Source: Natrialba swarupiae (GTDB lineage: Archaea; Halobacteriota; Halobacteria; Halobacteriales; Natrialbaceae). Taken from it: a stretch of 64,000 nucleotides of DNA. The position numbers and the translations under genes were made by a program. The DNA lies in NCBI RefSeq assembly GCF_008245225.1, contig NZ_VTAW01000011.1, positions 1 to 64,000 on the forward strand, written 5' to 3'. Of the stretch, positions 55,198-62,236 are shown piece by piece (positions within the stretch are counted from its first letter, which is position 1; the number at the start of each line of letters is the position of its first letter). The notes below the pieces were generated by a model that was given only the letters and a program-made list of their open reading frames with translations, did not search any database and was not told where the DNA came from.

Positions 55198-55815
55198 CTA
55201 GAAGAATTTGAACAGATCGTCCCGTTCTTGCTCGTGGAGGTGTTCGCGGACGGCCTCGTTCAGCGGTTCGATTTTGCCTTTTTTGGCCGTAATGGGAGCG
55301 ATCGTCTCCTGCCACTGCTTCCAGGGCGGGAGCAGTCCGAGCCGATCACAGAGGTCGTTTAGCCGCTCGTCGCGGTCGTCGACTTTGTCCATCTTGTTGA
55401 CGGCGACGACGGTCGGGATCTCCAGCTCGCGAAGGAAGTGAAACATCTCGACGTCGTAGGGAATCTCGTCCGGGCCGGAGTGGCGGTCGATGATGTCAAT
55501 GACGCTCTTGCCGTCGACGACCAAGATTGCGACGAGGACGTTGTCGGCGTACTCCTCTAAGTAGTGGACGATGTTCGTCTTGATCTCCTCGCGGTACTCC
55601 TCGTGGACGCCGCTCATGAAGCCGAAGCCGGGCAGGTCGGTGATGACGAAGTCTTCGGGTGCCCAGTCGTAGTGGTTGGGCTCGCGGGTGACGCCGGGTT
55701 TGCCGCCGGTGTCGAAGCTGTGGCCGGTCAACTCGCGCATGAGCGTCGACTTCCCCACGTTGGAGCGGCCGACGAGCGCGACCTCGGCCTCGCGGTCGGG
55801 ACGTGTCTCGAACAT
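55198..55815 (-). CDS. engB: EngB family ribosome-assembly GTPase
   Basis: 205 residues. G1 GRSNVGKST (16-24), G2 region [10 protein letters not shown]3 DLPGFGFM, G4 NKMD and a short C-terminal helix with KKGKIEPL. EngB-type GTPases assist large-subunit assembly. Convergent with the DUF364 gene. Confidence 0.92.
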
Positions 55816-56052: not shown

Positions 56053-57354
56053 GTGCGGCTCGTACAGCTGACGGTTCCGACGGGGAGACGAGAGACGATC
56101 CTCGAGACGTTGGACGAACGGGGGATCGACTACGTCGTGACCGACGAGGATAGCAATCGCGACTACACGGCGGTCGTCTACTTCCCGTTGCCGTCGCCGG
56201 CGGTCGAGGCTGTCCTCGACGAACTCCAGGAGGCGGGAATCGACGAGGACGCCTACACGGTCGTCGTCGACGCGGAGACGGTGGTCTCCCGCCGGTTCGA
56301 GTCGCTCCGAGAGGAGTACGAGAACGGCGACGTCGAGTCCGACCGGATCTCGAGACAGGAGCTCCAGGCCGAAGCGGAGTCGCTGACGCCGACGTTTGCG
56401 GTGTACGCGATCATGACGGTCATCAGCTCCGTCGTCGCGACCGCGGGCCTCTTGCTCGACTCGCCGGCGGTCGTTGTCGGGTCGATGGTGATCGCGCCGC
56501 TGATCGGACCGGCGCTTGGTGCGAGTGTCGGGACCGTGATCGACGACGAAGACCTGTTCTTCGAGAGTCTCCGCTACCAGATCATTGGCGTCGTCCTCGC
56601 GATCGCGGCGGCAGCGATCTTCGCCTGGATGGTGCGAGTGACCAACATCGTCCCACCCGGGCTCTCCATCGGCGACGTCGACGAGATCTCCGAGCGCCTC
56701 GCCCCCGACCTCCTCTCGCTGGCGATCGCACTCGGTGCCGGCGTCGCGGGGATCATCAGCATCGCGACCGGAACCTCGGTCGCGCTCGTCGGCGTCATGA
56801 TCGCCGCAGCGTTGATCCCGCCCGCGGCCGCGGCGGGCATCGCCATCGCCTGGGGACAGCCCTCGGCGGCGATCGGTTCGACCGTCCTCGTGCTCGTCAA
56901 CGTACTCTCGGTCAACCTCGCCGGCCTGCTCACACTGTGGTACGCCGGCTACCGACCGGAGAACCTGTTCTCGCTGGGTCCGACCGAAGAGCGAGTCCGC
57001 CGCCGGGTCGTCGGCCTGGGCGTGATCGTTCTCGTCTTCACCGTCTTTCTCGGCGCGATCACGTACTCCTCGTTTGCCGTCGCGTCGTTCGAGGAGAACG
57101 CCCGTAGTGAAGCTGAACTCCTCCTCGATGACGAAGCGTTCGCCCAGTACCAGCTGCTCGAGTTCGAGGTGATCATGGACCAGGATTATCCGTTCCAGAG
57201 CCCGGAGCGGGTGATCCTGACGATCGGTGGTGCGCCGGAGGAGCCGCCGCCGGAGTTGGCCGATGCGTTACACGAGCGGATCAACCAACACGCCGAGAGC
57301 TCCGTCGATGTCGAGATCAGATACATCGGCCTCGTCGAGCGAGAAACGGCGTAA
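56053..57354 (+). CDS. DUF389 (TIGR00341-like) membrane protein
   Basis: 433 residues, GTG start. The N-terminal 110 residues are a ferredoxin-like soluble region (MRLVQLTVPTGRRETILETLDERGIDYVVTDEDSN). A six- to seven-helix DUF389 core follows, with the glycine/proline-rich signature VVGSMVIAPLIGPALGASVGT and GVMIAAALIPPAAAAGIAIAWG. The C-terminal segment after the last helix is soluble. Function is unknown. Transport has been proposed for the family. Confidence 0.88.
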   Translation: MRLVQLTVPTGRRETILETLDERGIDYVVTDEDSNRDYTAVVYFPLPSPAVEAVLDELQEAGIDEDAYTVVVDAETVVSRRFESLREEYENGDVESDRISRQELQAEAESLTPTFAVYAIMTVISSVVATAGLLLDSPAVVVGSMVIAPLIGPALGASVGTVIDDEDLFFESLRYQIIGVVLAIAAAAIFAWMVRVTNIVPPGLSIGDVDEISERLAPDLLSLAIALGAGVAGIISIATGTSVALVGVMIAAALIPPAAAAGIAIAWGQPSAAIGSTVLVLVNVLSVNLAGLLTLWYAGYRPENLFSLGPTEERVRRRVVGLGVIVLVFTVFLGAITYSSFAVASFEENARSEAELLLDDEAFAQYQLLEFEVIMDQDYPFQSPERVILTIGGAPEEPPPELADALHERINQHAESSVDVEIRYIGLVERETA

Positions 57355-57385: not shown

Positions 57386-57709
57386 TCATCGTTTGCGAAG
57401 CCGGTCAAGCGGGCTCGAGAGCGTCGGATCGCTTCCGTCATCGGACTGTCGACGCTCGGATTCGGGCTCGCTCGAGCCGGCGTCGGTGTGTCCGAGTCGG
57501 CGACGAATCCAGGCTCGTGGCCCGCCGATGCGGTTGACGAGGTACGTCGGGAGATAGAGTGCGACGAGCCCGACGGCGAACATCCCGACACCGGGTGCGA
57601 TTCGCCCCGTCCGGACGAACTCGAATCCGACGATGAACATCGGCCCCGCCATCGAGAGTCCGGCGGCGGTCTGGAGCATCCAGAGGAGTCCCGGACTCTT
57701 CATCGTCAC
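57386..57709 (-). CDS. small haloarchaeal membrane protein
   Basis: 107 residues. Two transmembrane helices (about 8-28 and 36-60) and a charged tail with GRIAPGVGMFAVGLVALYLP. It starts at GTG 57709, overlapping the NOG1 stop by 4 bp (GTGA), or at ATG 57703. Operon-coupled with NOG1. No function known. Confidence 0.65.
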   Translation of the reverse strand: MTMKSPGLLWMLQTAAGLSMAGPMFIVGFEFVRTGRIAPGVGMFAVGLVALYLPTYLVNRIGGPRAWIRRRLGHTDAGSSEPESERRQSDDGSDPTLSSPLDRLRKR

Positions 57710-58701
57710 CCCTCGAAGGGGAGTGTCGGCTCGTAGTCGATCGCGTCGACCGCCGCCTCGAGCACTGTATCGACGTTCTCACCGGTTTCGACGCTCATTC
57801 GATAGTCGGCGTCCATCTCCGCGACCGCGTCGCCGGTCCAGACCTCCGTGCGGTCGGCCTTGTTCGCCACCGTGAGGACGGGGACGGTATCGAATCGGGC
57901 CGCGATCGCGTCCCGAAGCTCGAGTTGTGACTCGAGTGGGTAGCCACACTCGGCGCTCGGATCGAGGACGACGAGCATACAGTCGGCGAGGTGTTCGATC
58001 GCGCTGACTGCCTGGGATTCGATCTCGTTTCGTTCGGCCGGCGGGCGGTCGAGGAGGCCGGGGGTGTCGACGATCTGGTAGCGGATGTGATCTCGCTCGA
58101 AGTGGCCGACACCAATACCTTTCGTCGTAAACGGGTAGGAAGCGGTCTCACCGCGAGCGTTAGTGACGTCGTTGACGAGCGAGGACTTTCCGACGTTCGG
58201 GTAGCCCGCGACGACGATCGTCGGCTCGTCGGGGTTGATCTCCGGGAGGTCCCGAAGATCGTTGCGGGATTTGTTGATATACAACAGCTCGTCGTCGACC
58301 TGTTCGACGATGTCGGCAAGCCGTGCGAACGCCTGTTTGCGGTGCTTTCGAGCGGTGTCGACGTCGGTCTTCCGAAGCTTCGACTGGTACTCCTCGTGGA
58401 TCTCGCGGGACTTTCGACTGGCCCACATTACTTCCGAGAGACTCTGGCGCAGTTCGTCCACGTCGACGATTGCGTCCGCGAGTTCGTAGTAAAACGGGTG
58501 GACGTCGTCTTCGTACGCGAAGTCCGGCCAGGCCGTCACCACGTTCTCTAAGTTGTCCGAGATGATGTTCGCCGCCGTCTGGAGCATCGACTGCTGGGCC
58601 TCGAGGCCACCTTTGGCGTTCCCGGCCCGTGCTGCCCGCGAAAACGACTTATCGATCAACTCTTCCGCCGTGGGCGTCGTCGGAAGATCTTCGAAAATCA
58701 T
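57706..58701 (-). CDS. NOG1-type ribosome biogenesis GTPase
   Basis: 331 residues from MIFEDLPTTPTAEELI. An N-terminal helical NOG1 domain is followed by the G domain: G1 GYPNVGKSS, G3 DTPGLLDRPPAERNEIE, G4 ANKADR. NOG1 acts in late 60S/50S subunit maturation. Longer upstream in-frame starts exist but their Arg/Ser-rich extension lacks family character. Confidence 0.9.
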   Translation of the reverse strand: MIFEDLPTTPTAEELIDKSFSRAARAGNAKGGLEAQQSMLQTAANIISDNLENVVTAWPDFAYEDDVHPFYYELADAIVDVDELRQSLSEVMWASRKSREIHEEYQSKLRKTDVDTARKHRKQAFARLADIVEQVDDELLYINKSRNDLRDLPEINPDEPTIVVAGYPNVGKSSLVNDVTNARGETASYPFTTKGIGVGHFERDHIRYQIVDTPGLLDRPPAERNEIESQAVSAIEHLADCMLVVLDPSAECGYPLESQLELRDAIAARFDTVPVLTVANKADRTEVWTGDAVAEMDADYRMSVETGENVDTVLEAAVDAIDYEPTLPFEG

Positions 58702-58831
58702 ACTCCGTCGTAGGACGCGCGACGGTAAAAGGTCGTTCGTTACGCGGCGCAGCCTCGCTACGGTCTCGATTGACATGGGGGATAATAACACTCCAATCGA
58801 AGCGACTCGTCCTCTATTCCTCGCACCCGGC

Positions 58832-59062: not shown

Positions 59063-59434
59063 ATGACCGACTGGCGTGCCGTCATCATCGGCTTTCTCGT
59101 CATCACCGTCCTCGGAATCATCGGACTCACGCTGCCGGGCGTCGGCCAACTCGCGGCGGGACTCATCGGCGGCTTCGTCGCCGGCTATCTCGCCGGCGGC
59201 GGGATCGGACGTGGCTTCTGGCACGGGCTGCTCGCGGGGGCGTTCGGCGGAATCGTCGCCGGGGTGCTCGTGGCGCTCGTCGTCGGCGTCGTCGGCTGGG
59301 CGGGCGGCCCCGTCGGCGGATTGATCTCGGGTCTCGCCGGGATCGGCATCCTGGCTGTCGCCATCCTCATCTCGTTCGTCATGGCCATAGAGAGCGCACT
59401 CGCCGGCGCGCTCGGTGGCCTCCTCGAGTCGTAA
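59063..59434 (+). CDS. DUF5518 glycine-rich membrane protein
   Basis: 123 residues, almost entirely hydrophobic and Gly-rich, with four helices separated by short turns (VGQLAAGLIGGFVAGYLAGGGIGRGFWHGLLAGAFGG). Pattern of the haloarchaeal DUF5518 family. Function unknown. Immediately followed by an 11-bp tandem repeat. Confidence 0.75.
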   Translation: MTDWRAVIIGFLVITVLGIIGLTLPGVGQLAAGLIGGFVAGYLAGGGIGRGFWHGLLAGAFGGIVAGVLVALVVGVVGWAGGPVGGLISGLAGIGILAVAILISFVMAIESALAGALGGLLES

Positions 59435-59563: not shown

Positions 59564-60355
59564 GTGGCGCCATCGGTGTTCGATCCGGAACTCGAGTCGA
59601 TTACCGTCGCCGAGACGGAACTCTGTGACGTCGACGGCGAGGCCGGCGAGCGACTCGAGGGGTTTGGCCACCGAATCTACCGGGTTCGCGATCCGCGGGC
59701 GGCCGTCCTCGCGGCCGCGGCGGAACGGTTCTACGAGCGGGCAGGGGAGGACGACCTCCTCGAGAGTATCCGGGTGTTCGAGACGATCGCGGAGGCGGTC
59801 CTCTCCGAACGGTTGCCGACGCGGGACGTCCGGGCGACGGTCGAGTTCTACGCCGCCGCCTTGCTCCACGGTGTCGGCGTTCCGCCGGCGCTGTTTACCG
59901 CGACGTTCGCCGCCTCGCGGGTCGGCGGCTGGTGTGCTCACTGCCTCGAGCAACTCGCGAACAACGGGCTCGTCCGGCCGACCGCGCGCTACGTCGGCGC
60001 GACGGAGCGAAACTGGACGCCGCTCGGCGAACGGTTCGTCGCGGGCGACGACATCGTTCGAACGCCCGCCCGGTCGTCGCTCGAGCCCGTTTCGGAGACG
60101 CTGTCGGTGCTTTCGGAACCCAATCGCCTGCAGATCCTCCTGGCGCTTGCGGAACGCGACGAACCGATCGCGTACTCGACGCTCCGTGCGTCGGTGTCGG
60201 CGAAGGACAAAGGCCAGTTCAACTACCACCTCAGACAGCTTCGAGAGTCTTTCGTCGCCAACTGGGAGGAGGGGTACGAACTGACCGACGCCGGTCGGAC
60301 GGTCGTCGATGCCGTTCTGACCGAGGATCGGCTGCTCGAGGACGTCCTCGAGTGA
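59564..60355 (+). CDS. citrate-synthase small domain fused to ArsR-type HTH regulator
   Basis: 263 residues, GTG start. Residues about 30-146 read as the citrate synthase small domain: LEGFGHRIYRVRDPR (His 36 = oxaloacetate-site His), VEFYAAALLHGVGVPPALFT, FAASRVGGWCAHCLEQLANN and RPTARYVG. The large domain is absent and the catalytic Asp is Glu 94 (VEFY where active enzymes read VDFY). Residues about 175-262 are a winged HTH: LSVLSEPNRLQILLALAERDEPIAYSTLRASV and FNYHLRQLRESFV. I infer a metabolite- or CoA-sensing transcription factor rather than an enzyme. The acyl-CoA synthetase next door is a plausible target. Confidence 0.8.
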   Translation: MAPSVFDPELESITVAETELCDVDGEAGERLEGFGHRIYRVRDPRAAVLAAAAERFYERAGEDDLLESIRVFETIAEAVLSERLPTRDVRATVEFYAAALLHGVGVPPALFTATFAASRVGGWCAHCLEQLANNGLVRPTARYVGATERNWTPLGERFVAGDDIVRTPARSSLEPVSETLSVLSEPNRLQILLALAERDEPIAYSTLRASVSAKDKGQFNYHLRQLRESFVANWEEGYELTDAGRTVVDAVLTEDRLLEDVLE

Positions 60356-60413: not shown

Positions 60414-60462
60414 GTCGTAGGTTGTCGCCTCGAAACGGCCGTCGTGGGTTGTCGCCTCGAAA
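60414..60462 (+). repeat. 22-bp direct repeat pair in the acyl-CoA synthetase leader
   Basis: Two 22-bp copies at 60414-60435 and 60441-60462 agree at 21 of 22 positions (GGTTGTCGCCTCGAAA within both), 27 bp from start to start. They lie between the citrate synthase-HTH gene and the acyl-CoA synthetase start, in operator position. Confidence 0.6.
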
Positions 60463-60553: not shown

Positions 60554-62236
60554 ATGCACAAACCACTGCTCGTGACGGCGTTTCTCGACCGGGCGCGAAC
60601 CCACTACGGTGACGACGAGGCGGTGGTCGCGACGACGGGGGAACGATTCACCTACGAGGAGCTCGGCGAGCGCGTCGACCGATTCTCGGCCGCGTTGCAG
60701 GCCCGCGGGGTCGAGAAGGGTGACCGGGTAGCGGTACTCGACCCGAACACGCACTACCACCTCGAGGCGGCGTACGGAACGATGCAGATCGGCGCGGTCC
60801 ACACGCCGTTGAACTACCGGCTCACGCCGTCTGACTTCGAGTACATCCTCTCGGACGCGGGCGTCGACGCGATCTACGTCGACCACGAGTACGTCGAGAA
60901 GATCGAACCGATCCGCGAGTCGGTGCCGACGGAGACGTTCGTGACGAACGATCTCGACGCACTCGAGGAACTCGACGCCGAGAGAGCGGAATCCAGCGAC
61001 GACGGCGAACCGTCGGGCTCGAGTGGGGACGTCGCCGACGCGTGGGAGTCGTTCGACGTGATGCTTGAGGAGGCCGGGACGGCGTACGAACGGCCGGAGA
61101 TGGCCGAGGACGAAATCATCACGATCAACTACACCTCGGGGACCACGGGCGATCCGAAGGGCGTCTGTCGTACCCACCGCGCCGAGACGCTCCACGCCTA
61201 CCAGGTGACGATCCACCAGGAGATCGCGGACGACGACGTCTACCTCTGGACGCTTCCCATGTTCCACGTCAACGGCTGGGGCCACATATACGCCATCACG
61301 GGGATGGGCGCGAAACACGTCTGTACGCGTGGCGTCGACTCTGGGGACGTCTTCGAGGCGATTCGATCCGAGGACGTCTCCTACCTCTGTGGTGCGCCGA
61401 CCGTGTTGAACATGCTGATCGACCACTACGAGGCACACGACCCCGAGACGACCGGCGACAACGACGTACGGATCGCGACTGCGGGGAGTGCGCCACCGGA
61501 GGCGACCGTCCGAACGGTCGAAGACGAGTTCGGCTGGTATCTGAAACACGTCTACGGGGCGACGGAGACGGGACCGCTGATCACCACGTCGGACGCACGC
61601 CGTCACTTCGACGACGAGAGCGAGGGTCGCTTCGCGATCAAGAAGCGACAGGGGCTCGCCTATCTCGGGACCGACGTCAGGGTCGTCAACGAGGACGGCG
61701 AGGACGTCCCGCGGGACGACGAGACTGTCGGTGAGGTCGTCGTCCGGGGCAACCAGGTGATGGAAAAGTACTGGAACAAGCCCGACGCGACCGAGGAGTC
61801 GTTTACCGACCGCATCGAAGGCTACTACCACACCGGTGATCTGGCGACGGTCGACGAGAACGGAATGGTCGCCATCCAGGACCGGAAGAAAGACATCATC
61901 ATCACTGGCGGCGAGAACGTCTCGAGCATCGAACTCGAGGACACCCTCTTCGACCATCCCGCGGTCTCGGAAGTCGCGGTCATCCCCTCGCCCAGCGACG
62001 AGTGGGGTGAGACACCGAAGGCGTTCGTCGTGCCAGCCAGCGGCGACCCCGACGATCCGGGGGTGACGAGCGACGAACTCGTCGCGTTCACGCGCGACGA
62101 ACTCGCGAGCTACAAGGCGGTCAAACAAGTCGAGTTCGTCGAGGAGTTACCGACGACGGCGACCGGAAAGATCCAGAAGTACGAACTCCGCCAGGAGGAG
62201 TGGGAAGACGAAGATCAGATGGTCGGAGAAGGGTAG
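60554..62236 (+). CDS. acyl-CoA synthetase (AMP-dependent ligase)
   Basis: 560 residues from MHKPLLVTAFLDRARTHY. Adenylation motifs: YTSGTTGDPKG (about 194-204), LPMFHVNGWGH, YGATETGPLI, GYYHTGDLATVDENG and the C-terminal catalytic Lys in TATGKIQKYELR. It activates an organic or fatty acid with ATP and CoA. The family includes medium/long-chain acyl-CoA ligases. The chain length is not readable. Probably regulated by the adjacent fusion regulator. Confidence 0.88.
   Translation: MHKPLLVTAFLDRARTHYGDDEAVVATTGERFTYEELGERVDRFSAALQARGVEKGDRVAVLDPNTHYHLEAAYGTMQIGAVHTPLNYRLTPSDFEYILSDAGVDAIYVDHEYVEKIEPIRESVPTETFVTNDLDALEELDAERAESSDDGEPSGSSGDVADAWESFDVMLEEAGTAYERPEMAEDEIITINYTSGTTGDPKGVCRTHRAETLHAYQVTIHQEIADDDVYLWTLPMFHVNGWGHIYAITGMGAKHVCTRGVDSGDVFEAIRSEDVSYLCGAPTVLNMLIDHYEAHDPETTGDNDVRIATAGSAPPEATVRTVEDEFGWYLKHVYGATETGPLITTSDARRHFDDESEGRFAIKKRQGLAYLGTDVRVVNEDGEDVPRDDETVGEVVVRGNQVMEKYWNKPDATEESFTDRIEGYYHTGDLATVDENGMVAIQDRKKDIIITGGENVSSIELEDTLFDHPAVSEVAVIPSPSDEWGETPKAFVVPASGDPDDPGVTSDELVAFTRDELASYKAVKQVEFVEELPTTATGKIQKYELRQEEWEDEDQMVGEG

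Follow-up and report, generated by a model that had tools for sequence, protein, structure and literature searches.

An internally deleted citrate synthase–winged helix gene in a haloarchaeon and the intact family predicted to regulate a neighbouring citrate synthase

A precedent for an enzyme domain joined to a helix-turn-helix (HTH) is GfcR, a phosphoribosyltransferase-HTH protein. Similar in design to the haloarchaeal citrate synthase (CS)-HTH fusion described here are bacterial proteins annotated as "citrate synthase family protein" with an N-terminal HTH of the HTH_17/MerR type (Agrobacterium C58 WP_236762366.1, Chelatococcus WP_245303247.1). Like the haloarchaeal fusion, they combine a CS homologue with a DNA-binding domain and are encoded beside a plain CS, and they have Pro after the equivalent of H320, as do some haloarchaeal fusions. 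They differ in that their HTH belongs to another family and occupies the other end of the protein, and in that the two genes are divergent instead of tandem. Their loci, divergent from plain CS, lie on Agrobacterium and Chelatococcus plasmids (L115:2686-5062, L117:2603-5074), and no functional description of these proteins was found in the papers searched. Caulobacter CitA is likewise a CS used for regulation (a trigger or moonlighting enzyme), but acts without a fused DNA-binding domain being described (eLife 2020, PMC7083601). In the same study (PMC7083601), an E. coli gltA mutant was not rescued by Caulobacter CitC, which is encoded beside CitB. Among solved structures, the CS part of the fusion is closest to Bacillus subtilis CitA (2c6x), which has Glu at the catalytic Asp position and no HTH. 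The parent family of the fused domain is a haloarchaeal paralogue that we call CS2 (annotated "citrate synthase/methylcitrate synthase", e.g., Haloferax mediterranei WP_004060952.1), with Glu at the same position and, unlike the fusion, no HTH. On the HTH side, the haloarchaeal DUF7347-DUF7351 regulators contain the same winged HTH family but another sensor domain, and their generic members lack the inverted repeat discussed below. A small DUF7347 HTH encoded beside azlCD groups with the fusion HTH and has the same repeat, without a CS sensor. In the literature searched, which covered few subscription papers, we found neither a haloarchaeal CS joined to an HTH nor DUF7347 by name. This agrees with a first-pass annotation of the locus, which knew of no family joining CS to an ArsR-type HTH; the intact haloarchaeal protein is apparently undescribed.

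The analysis started from a 64,000-nucleotide stretch of Natrialba swarupiae DNA (the window), which contains a single open frame with a GTG start that joins CS sequence to an ArsR-like winged HTH (Table 1) and has a coding-like GC content by codon position (0.73/0.47/0.84). Profile searches matched both parts, as the annotation had proposed: Pfam Citrate_synt at residues 28-140 (E 1.4e-31), where the named CS motifs are present, and Pfam DUF7347 at residues 178-251 (E 3.5e-24; 85.3 bits, gathering score 27.6). The NCBIfam model HTH_metalloreg scored 20.7 bits with a cut-off of 55, which is below the threshold for ArsR/SmtB metalloregulators, and the only HTH is the C-terminal DUF7347 domain, with no MerR-type HTH at the N-terminus. 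Residue 94, at the acidic catalytic position (D375 equivalent), is Glu as stated in the annotation. The protein covers only positions 247-357 of the 357 positions of PF00285, nearly all of which are covered by intact relatives, and aligns only to the C-terminal third of the NCBIfam CS models; the retained CS part starts past the first catalytic His (H274 equivalent). The first 28 residues are also CS, with 48-72% identity to the N-termini of full-length CS-HTH proteins over the first ~30 residues, and the GTG is orthologous to the GTG of the intact fusions (V[TA]PSVFDP). The large domain, described in the annotation as missing, is mostly lost, but its C-terminal strip is kept and residues 1-28 are a CS N-terminus. 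What is left is an incomplete small domain with this strip. AlphaFold2 prediction of the protein alone, without an alignment, gave an uninformative model (pLDDT 44.6, pTM 0.32).

Table 1. Features of the window at and around the CS-HTH gene.
Feature	Position	Strand	Basis
EngB	55198-55815		synteny with g9 fusions
DUF389	56053-57354		synteny with g9 fusions
Nog1-type GTPase	57706-58773	-	synteny with g9 fusions
DUF5518 membrane protein, a neighbour conserved at the g9 fusion locus	59063-59434	+	synteny
CS-HTH gene, internally deleted copy, 263 aa	59564-60355	+	frame and Pfam/NCBIfam matches, alignment to intact fusions
Residues 1-28, fusion-type CS N-terminus	59564-59647	+	48-72% identity to fusion N-termini
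Deletion junction CGGCGAGC	59644-59651	+	8-mer that borders the missing 660 bp on either side in the relative L054
Residues 28-140, CS C-terminal part; H320, R329, D375 (Glu94), R401 and R421 equivalents kept, H238 and H274 equivalents gone	59645-59983	+	Pfam, CS alignment
Residues 178-251, DUF7347 winged HTH; SAKDKGQFNYHL in the recognition region, where most other fusions have SIEDKGRFNYHL	60095-60316	+	Pfam, HTH alignment
Acyl-CoA synthetase (AMP-binding), at the place of the partner CS2 in relatives	60554-62236	+	synteny

Intact relatives consist of a complete CS and the same C-terminal HTH in one frame of 473-509 aa, and occur in 18 other haloarchaeal genomes from ten genera and four families. 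Across 392 scanned genomes of the order, this protein was recovered at E values down to 1e-102 in frames of ~480-530 codons. With one genome surveyed per species, family-wide scans placed intact fusions in 8 of 125 genomes of the window's family (f1), 7 of 146 in f4, 2 of 170 in f5 and 1 of 28 in f17; three other genomes of the window's genus contain none. At least one intact member, the plasmid-encoded WP_276256089.1 of Halomontanus rarus TS33, carries no annotation beyond citrate/2-methylcitrate synthase. These 18 in-frame homologues rule out a chance joining as well as a frameshift or read-through of separate genes, in line with the annotation's view of one real fused gene. They also eliminate the idea of a family built on the small domain only, since all of them carry a complete CS; the HTH fusion is spread over four families, and the small-domain-only form was seen nowhere else. 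Phylogenetic analysis of CS domains places all 18 fusions in a single clade (support 100/99) within the CS2 family, apart from canonical CS, which shows on sequence grounds that the intact fusions arose once, from a CS2 paralogue. The window copy does not combine a complete CS and a C-terminal HTH in one frame; it clusters with the fusions of genus g9 (89/86) and, being homologous to both ends of the intact fusion, was filed as a degraded derivative.

All 18 intact loci contain a plain CS2 paralogue 3' of the fusion on the same strand, at 155-304 bp measured to the likely CS2 start, or at 3.6 kb in G081. Alignment of these gaps revealed a shared inverted repeat within otherwise diverged DNA, GGRGAA-N6-TTCYCC (the dyad). 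Every gap (18/18) holds a site matching at least 11 of the 12 positions and most hold two, one shortly past the fusion stop and the other typically 34-44 bp ahead of CS2 and immediately 5' to a TATA-like box of the CTTA/CCTATC type; in L095 and L098 the assigned CS2 start is 92 and 128 bp away from the nearest dyad. Sites of this quality number 30 in 7.5 kb of gaps versus 6 in 268 kb of flanks. The exact dyad occurs 0-4 times per 4-5 Mb genome and falls within the gap in 16-17 of the 18 fusion genomes, often as the sole match; G042 has near matches only, and in G232 the exact match overlaps the 3' end of the fusion gene. Upstream of the fusion gene itself no dyad was seen, only short promoter-like blocks conserved within groups.

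The fused CS domain retains oxaloacetate-binding residues. Of the numbered CS residues, whose roles we take from established knowledge of the pig and E. coli enzymes, the equivalents of H274, H320, R329, R401 and R421 are present in all 18 intact fusions and that of H238 in 17, and the D375 position is always acidic (10 Asp, 8 Glu). The first-pass annotation had noted the Glu at this position. We reject an Asp-to-Glu exchange as sensor adaptation, because the NVEFY motif with Glu is also found in unfused CS2 paralogues and in B. subtilis CitA (2c6x), and more than half of the intact fusions have Asp. Conservation of the oxaloacetate-binding residues makes an oxaloacetate-like ligand likely for the intact fusions, whereas full catalysis by them appears doubtful. 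The HGGA[NP] motif is changed in 18/18, and the Arg after H320 is replaced in 15/18 (GHR to GH[PSIVA]). These changes bear on the possibility that catalysis is the main role of the intact fusion, which would then be bifunctional, acting both as a citrate (or methylcitrate) synthase and as a regulator of its own operon, perhaps in hetero-oligomers with CS2. The core catalytic His and acid kept in every member and the constant pairing with CS2 would fit such a protein, but the altered motifs, together with tree branches that are longer for the fused CS domains than for the paired CS2, render it unlikely. A dedicated regulator that would sense CS ligands and control CS2 remains the most likely reading of the intact protein.

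The window gene has probably lost this function. Window residues 1-33 align to the N-terminus of the intact fusions and residues 27-263 to their C-terminus, with the intervening positions absent, so that ~28 first and ~235 C-terminal residues are kept and 220 codons are lost in frame; the offset is the same 220 codons against L054, L055, L056 and L093. Since an 8-mer that flanks the missing stretch on both sides in L054 is found once at the junction, the simplest account is an in-frame deletion between short direct repeats. With this segment went the large domain, through which CS dimerises, and the first half of the oxaloacetate pocket with its equivalents of H238 and H274. Therefore, the window copy cannot have the pocket, and the annotation's proposal that a bare small domain serves as the sensor is not supported, as intact relatives have the whole CS with its oxaloacetate pocket; sensing of CS ligands is plausible for the intact family only.

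Synteny with g9 (Table 1) indicates that the window gene occupies the ancestral place of a fusion/CS2 pair; in several g9 genomes without a fusion this site is empty and a DUF326 gene adjoins DUF5518. The only CS2 remnant in the window genome (G000) is a 51-codon C-terminal scrap on contig C9 (L023:4854-5006), which adjoins DUF326 and MoxR genes, the genes that flank CS2 in g9. This scrap sits at the breakpoint of a rearrangement and is followed by an MFS gene. Apart from the canonical CS, a whole-genome search found no other CS2 and no other CS large domain. The pair has thus been broken and mostly lost in this lineage. The window locus also lacks what all 18 intact loci have, a downstream CS2 with a dyad in the gap. 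The exact dyad is absent from the entire window genome, and none lies near the window gene; two matches with two mismatches, fewer than expected by chance, lie far away in the window. The region 60414-60462, which the annotation had singled out for footprinting, is a two-copy 22-bp direct repeat (GTCGTRGGTTGTCGCCTCGAAA at 60414-60435 and 60441-60462, one mismatch, 27-bp period) between the CS-HTH and acyl-CoA synthetase genes. It is unrelated to the dyad and not the operator; the likely operator is the inverted repeat upstream of CS2, which is absent here. Elsewhere, an HTH-less CS in G349 (L111:3575-4708, - strand) has a fusion-type N-terminus (MSPSVFDPGLES) and a CS2-type body. This gene is apparently a recombinant between the tandem paralogues, and would represent another decay route of the fusion/CS2 pair.

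It is conceivable, though quite improbable, that the 263-residue protein is a functional new regulator in which the leftover CS C-terminal part serves the HTH as a compact module for sensing or dimerisation. The deletion is in frame, start and stop are intact, no internal stop codon interrupts the frame, and the HTH is largely kept. Moreover, pN/pS is below 1 (CS part 0.44-0.59, HTH 0.28-0.50) and only somewhat raised over the values among g9 relatives (0.24-0.50 and 0.09-0.36), which shows that the frame is still under constraint. On the other hand, the short form occurs in no other genome, including three of the same genus, half of the pocket and the dimer-forming domain are missing, the partner gene is down to 51 aa, and the genome has no operator. 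Two substitutions in the recognition region, I188A and R193Q (counted from where the aligned part begins), affect residues that do not vary among the 18 other fusions; in total 3 of 24 invariant HTH positions are changed, versus 0-1 in each of those fusions. Accelerated pseudogene evolution was considered and rejected, as the overall branch length is within the range of the relatives; our argument for decay therefore rests on the lost genes and the altered recognition region instead of on evolutionary rate. With its partner a scrap, no operator left and the large domain lost, the window copy is most likely vestigial, although a working DNA-binding protein could still be encoded, or the deletion may have occurred recently.

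Since the dyad consensus was tuned on fusion-CS2 gaps, the only independent test comes from azlC loci. In G011, a genome without the fusion, an exact dyad lies just past a small standalone DUF7347 HTH gene and before azlC. Relatives of this HTH were collected first and their loci were then checked for the dyad. In this prospective test 10 of 10 new azlC-linked HTH loci contained it (11/11 with the prompting locus), matching 11-12 of 12 positions at -7 to +64 bp from the HTH stop and ahead of the next gene. The loci L138-L147 and L150 each present a small DUF7347 HTH gene, the dyad and an azlC-type gene in this order; AzlC/AzlD was confirmed by Pfam in L099. The azl and fusion HTHs, whose recognition regions have S-[IV]-x-D-[KN]-G in common, group together (100/100), separate from generic DUF7347. 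Sequence comparison thereby ties this HTH subfamily to the dyad without recourse to CS2 loci, and the azlC-linked protein is a probable autonomous regulator of branched-chain amino acid export. A dyad common to all DUF7347 proteins can be dismissed, since none of 20 generic regulator loci has it; beyond the fusions, it is confined to their sister group of HTHs and to the divergent locus L106. There, an exact dyad (L106:2533-2550) precedes by 80 bp the gene of a DUF7347-DUF7351 regulator that falls outside the fusion/azl group and has DDKG as its recognition motif. That the dyad abuts a TATA-like box could mean that it is part of the core promoter, or the site of another regulator, and unrelated to the fusion HTH. 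This is very unlikely given that the dyad is absent from promoters of unfused CS2 (best matches 7-10 of 12, about shuffle level) and from generic DUF7347 loci, and that it accompanies this HTH subfamily at two targets as unrelated as CS2 and azlC. That the missing 660 bp reflect faulty assembly of a strain with an intact fusion is scarcely credible: although the deletion rests on a single draft assembly of 99 contigs, the repeat at the junction measures only about 8 bp in a relative, too short to collapse, the large domain is found nowhere else in the genome except in the canonical CS, and CS2 is destroyed too.

The sequences themselves show that the two domains are fused, that the fusion arose once, that it is paired with CS2, that the gaps contain the dyad and that this dyad is linked to the HTH subfamily; on these observations we base the following proposal. 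With good confidence we regard the window gene as a degraded member of a haloarchaeal regulator family with a complete CS and a C-terminal winged HTH, the intact form of which is predicted to bind the dyads in the gap and to repress CS2 until a ligand is present. The fusion may bind the dyads as a dimer, with the CS dimer holding two HTHs. As one dyad is directly 5' of the TATA-like box, at the position of TFB recognition, the bound protein would cover this region and repress CS2. Binding of oxaloacetate, probably with acyl-CoA, or of citrate to the CS pocket would then release CS2. That the protein acts as a repressor rather than an activator is a guess from the operator position.

Haloarchaea have probably turned a duplicated CS into a dedicated one-component transcription factor that reads the substrate or product of the enzyme and controls the adjacent CS2 through paired GGRGAA-N6-TTCYCC operators, as bacteria would have done independently with a MerR-type HTH at the other end; we infer that the two kinds of fusion are of independent origin. 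Because a similar design exists in bacteria, with an HTH that differs in family and end, the haloarchaeal fusion is a variant among enzyme-derived one-component regulators, not a wholly new kind. To our knowledge, few archaeal metabolite-responsive regulators have known ligands. In this family, the recruitment of a TCA-cycle enzyme fold for transcriptional sensing can be put to a concrete test; the predicted operator, the target gene and the partner are all encoded within about 3 kb. Since the same type of HTH and operator occur with and without the CS sensor, as the azlCD link indicates, the role of the sensor can be isolated, and the window copy illustrates how such a fusion/CS2 pair decays.
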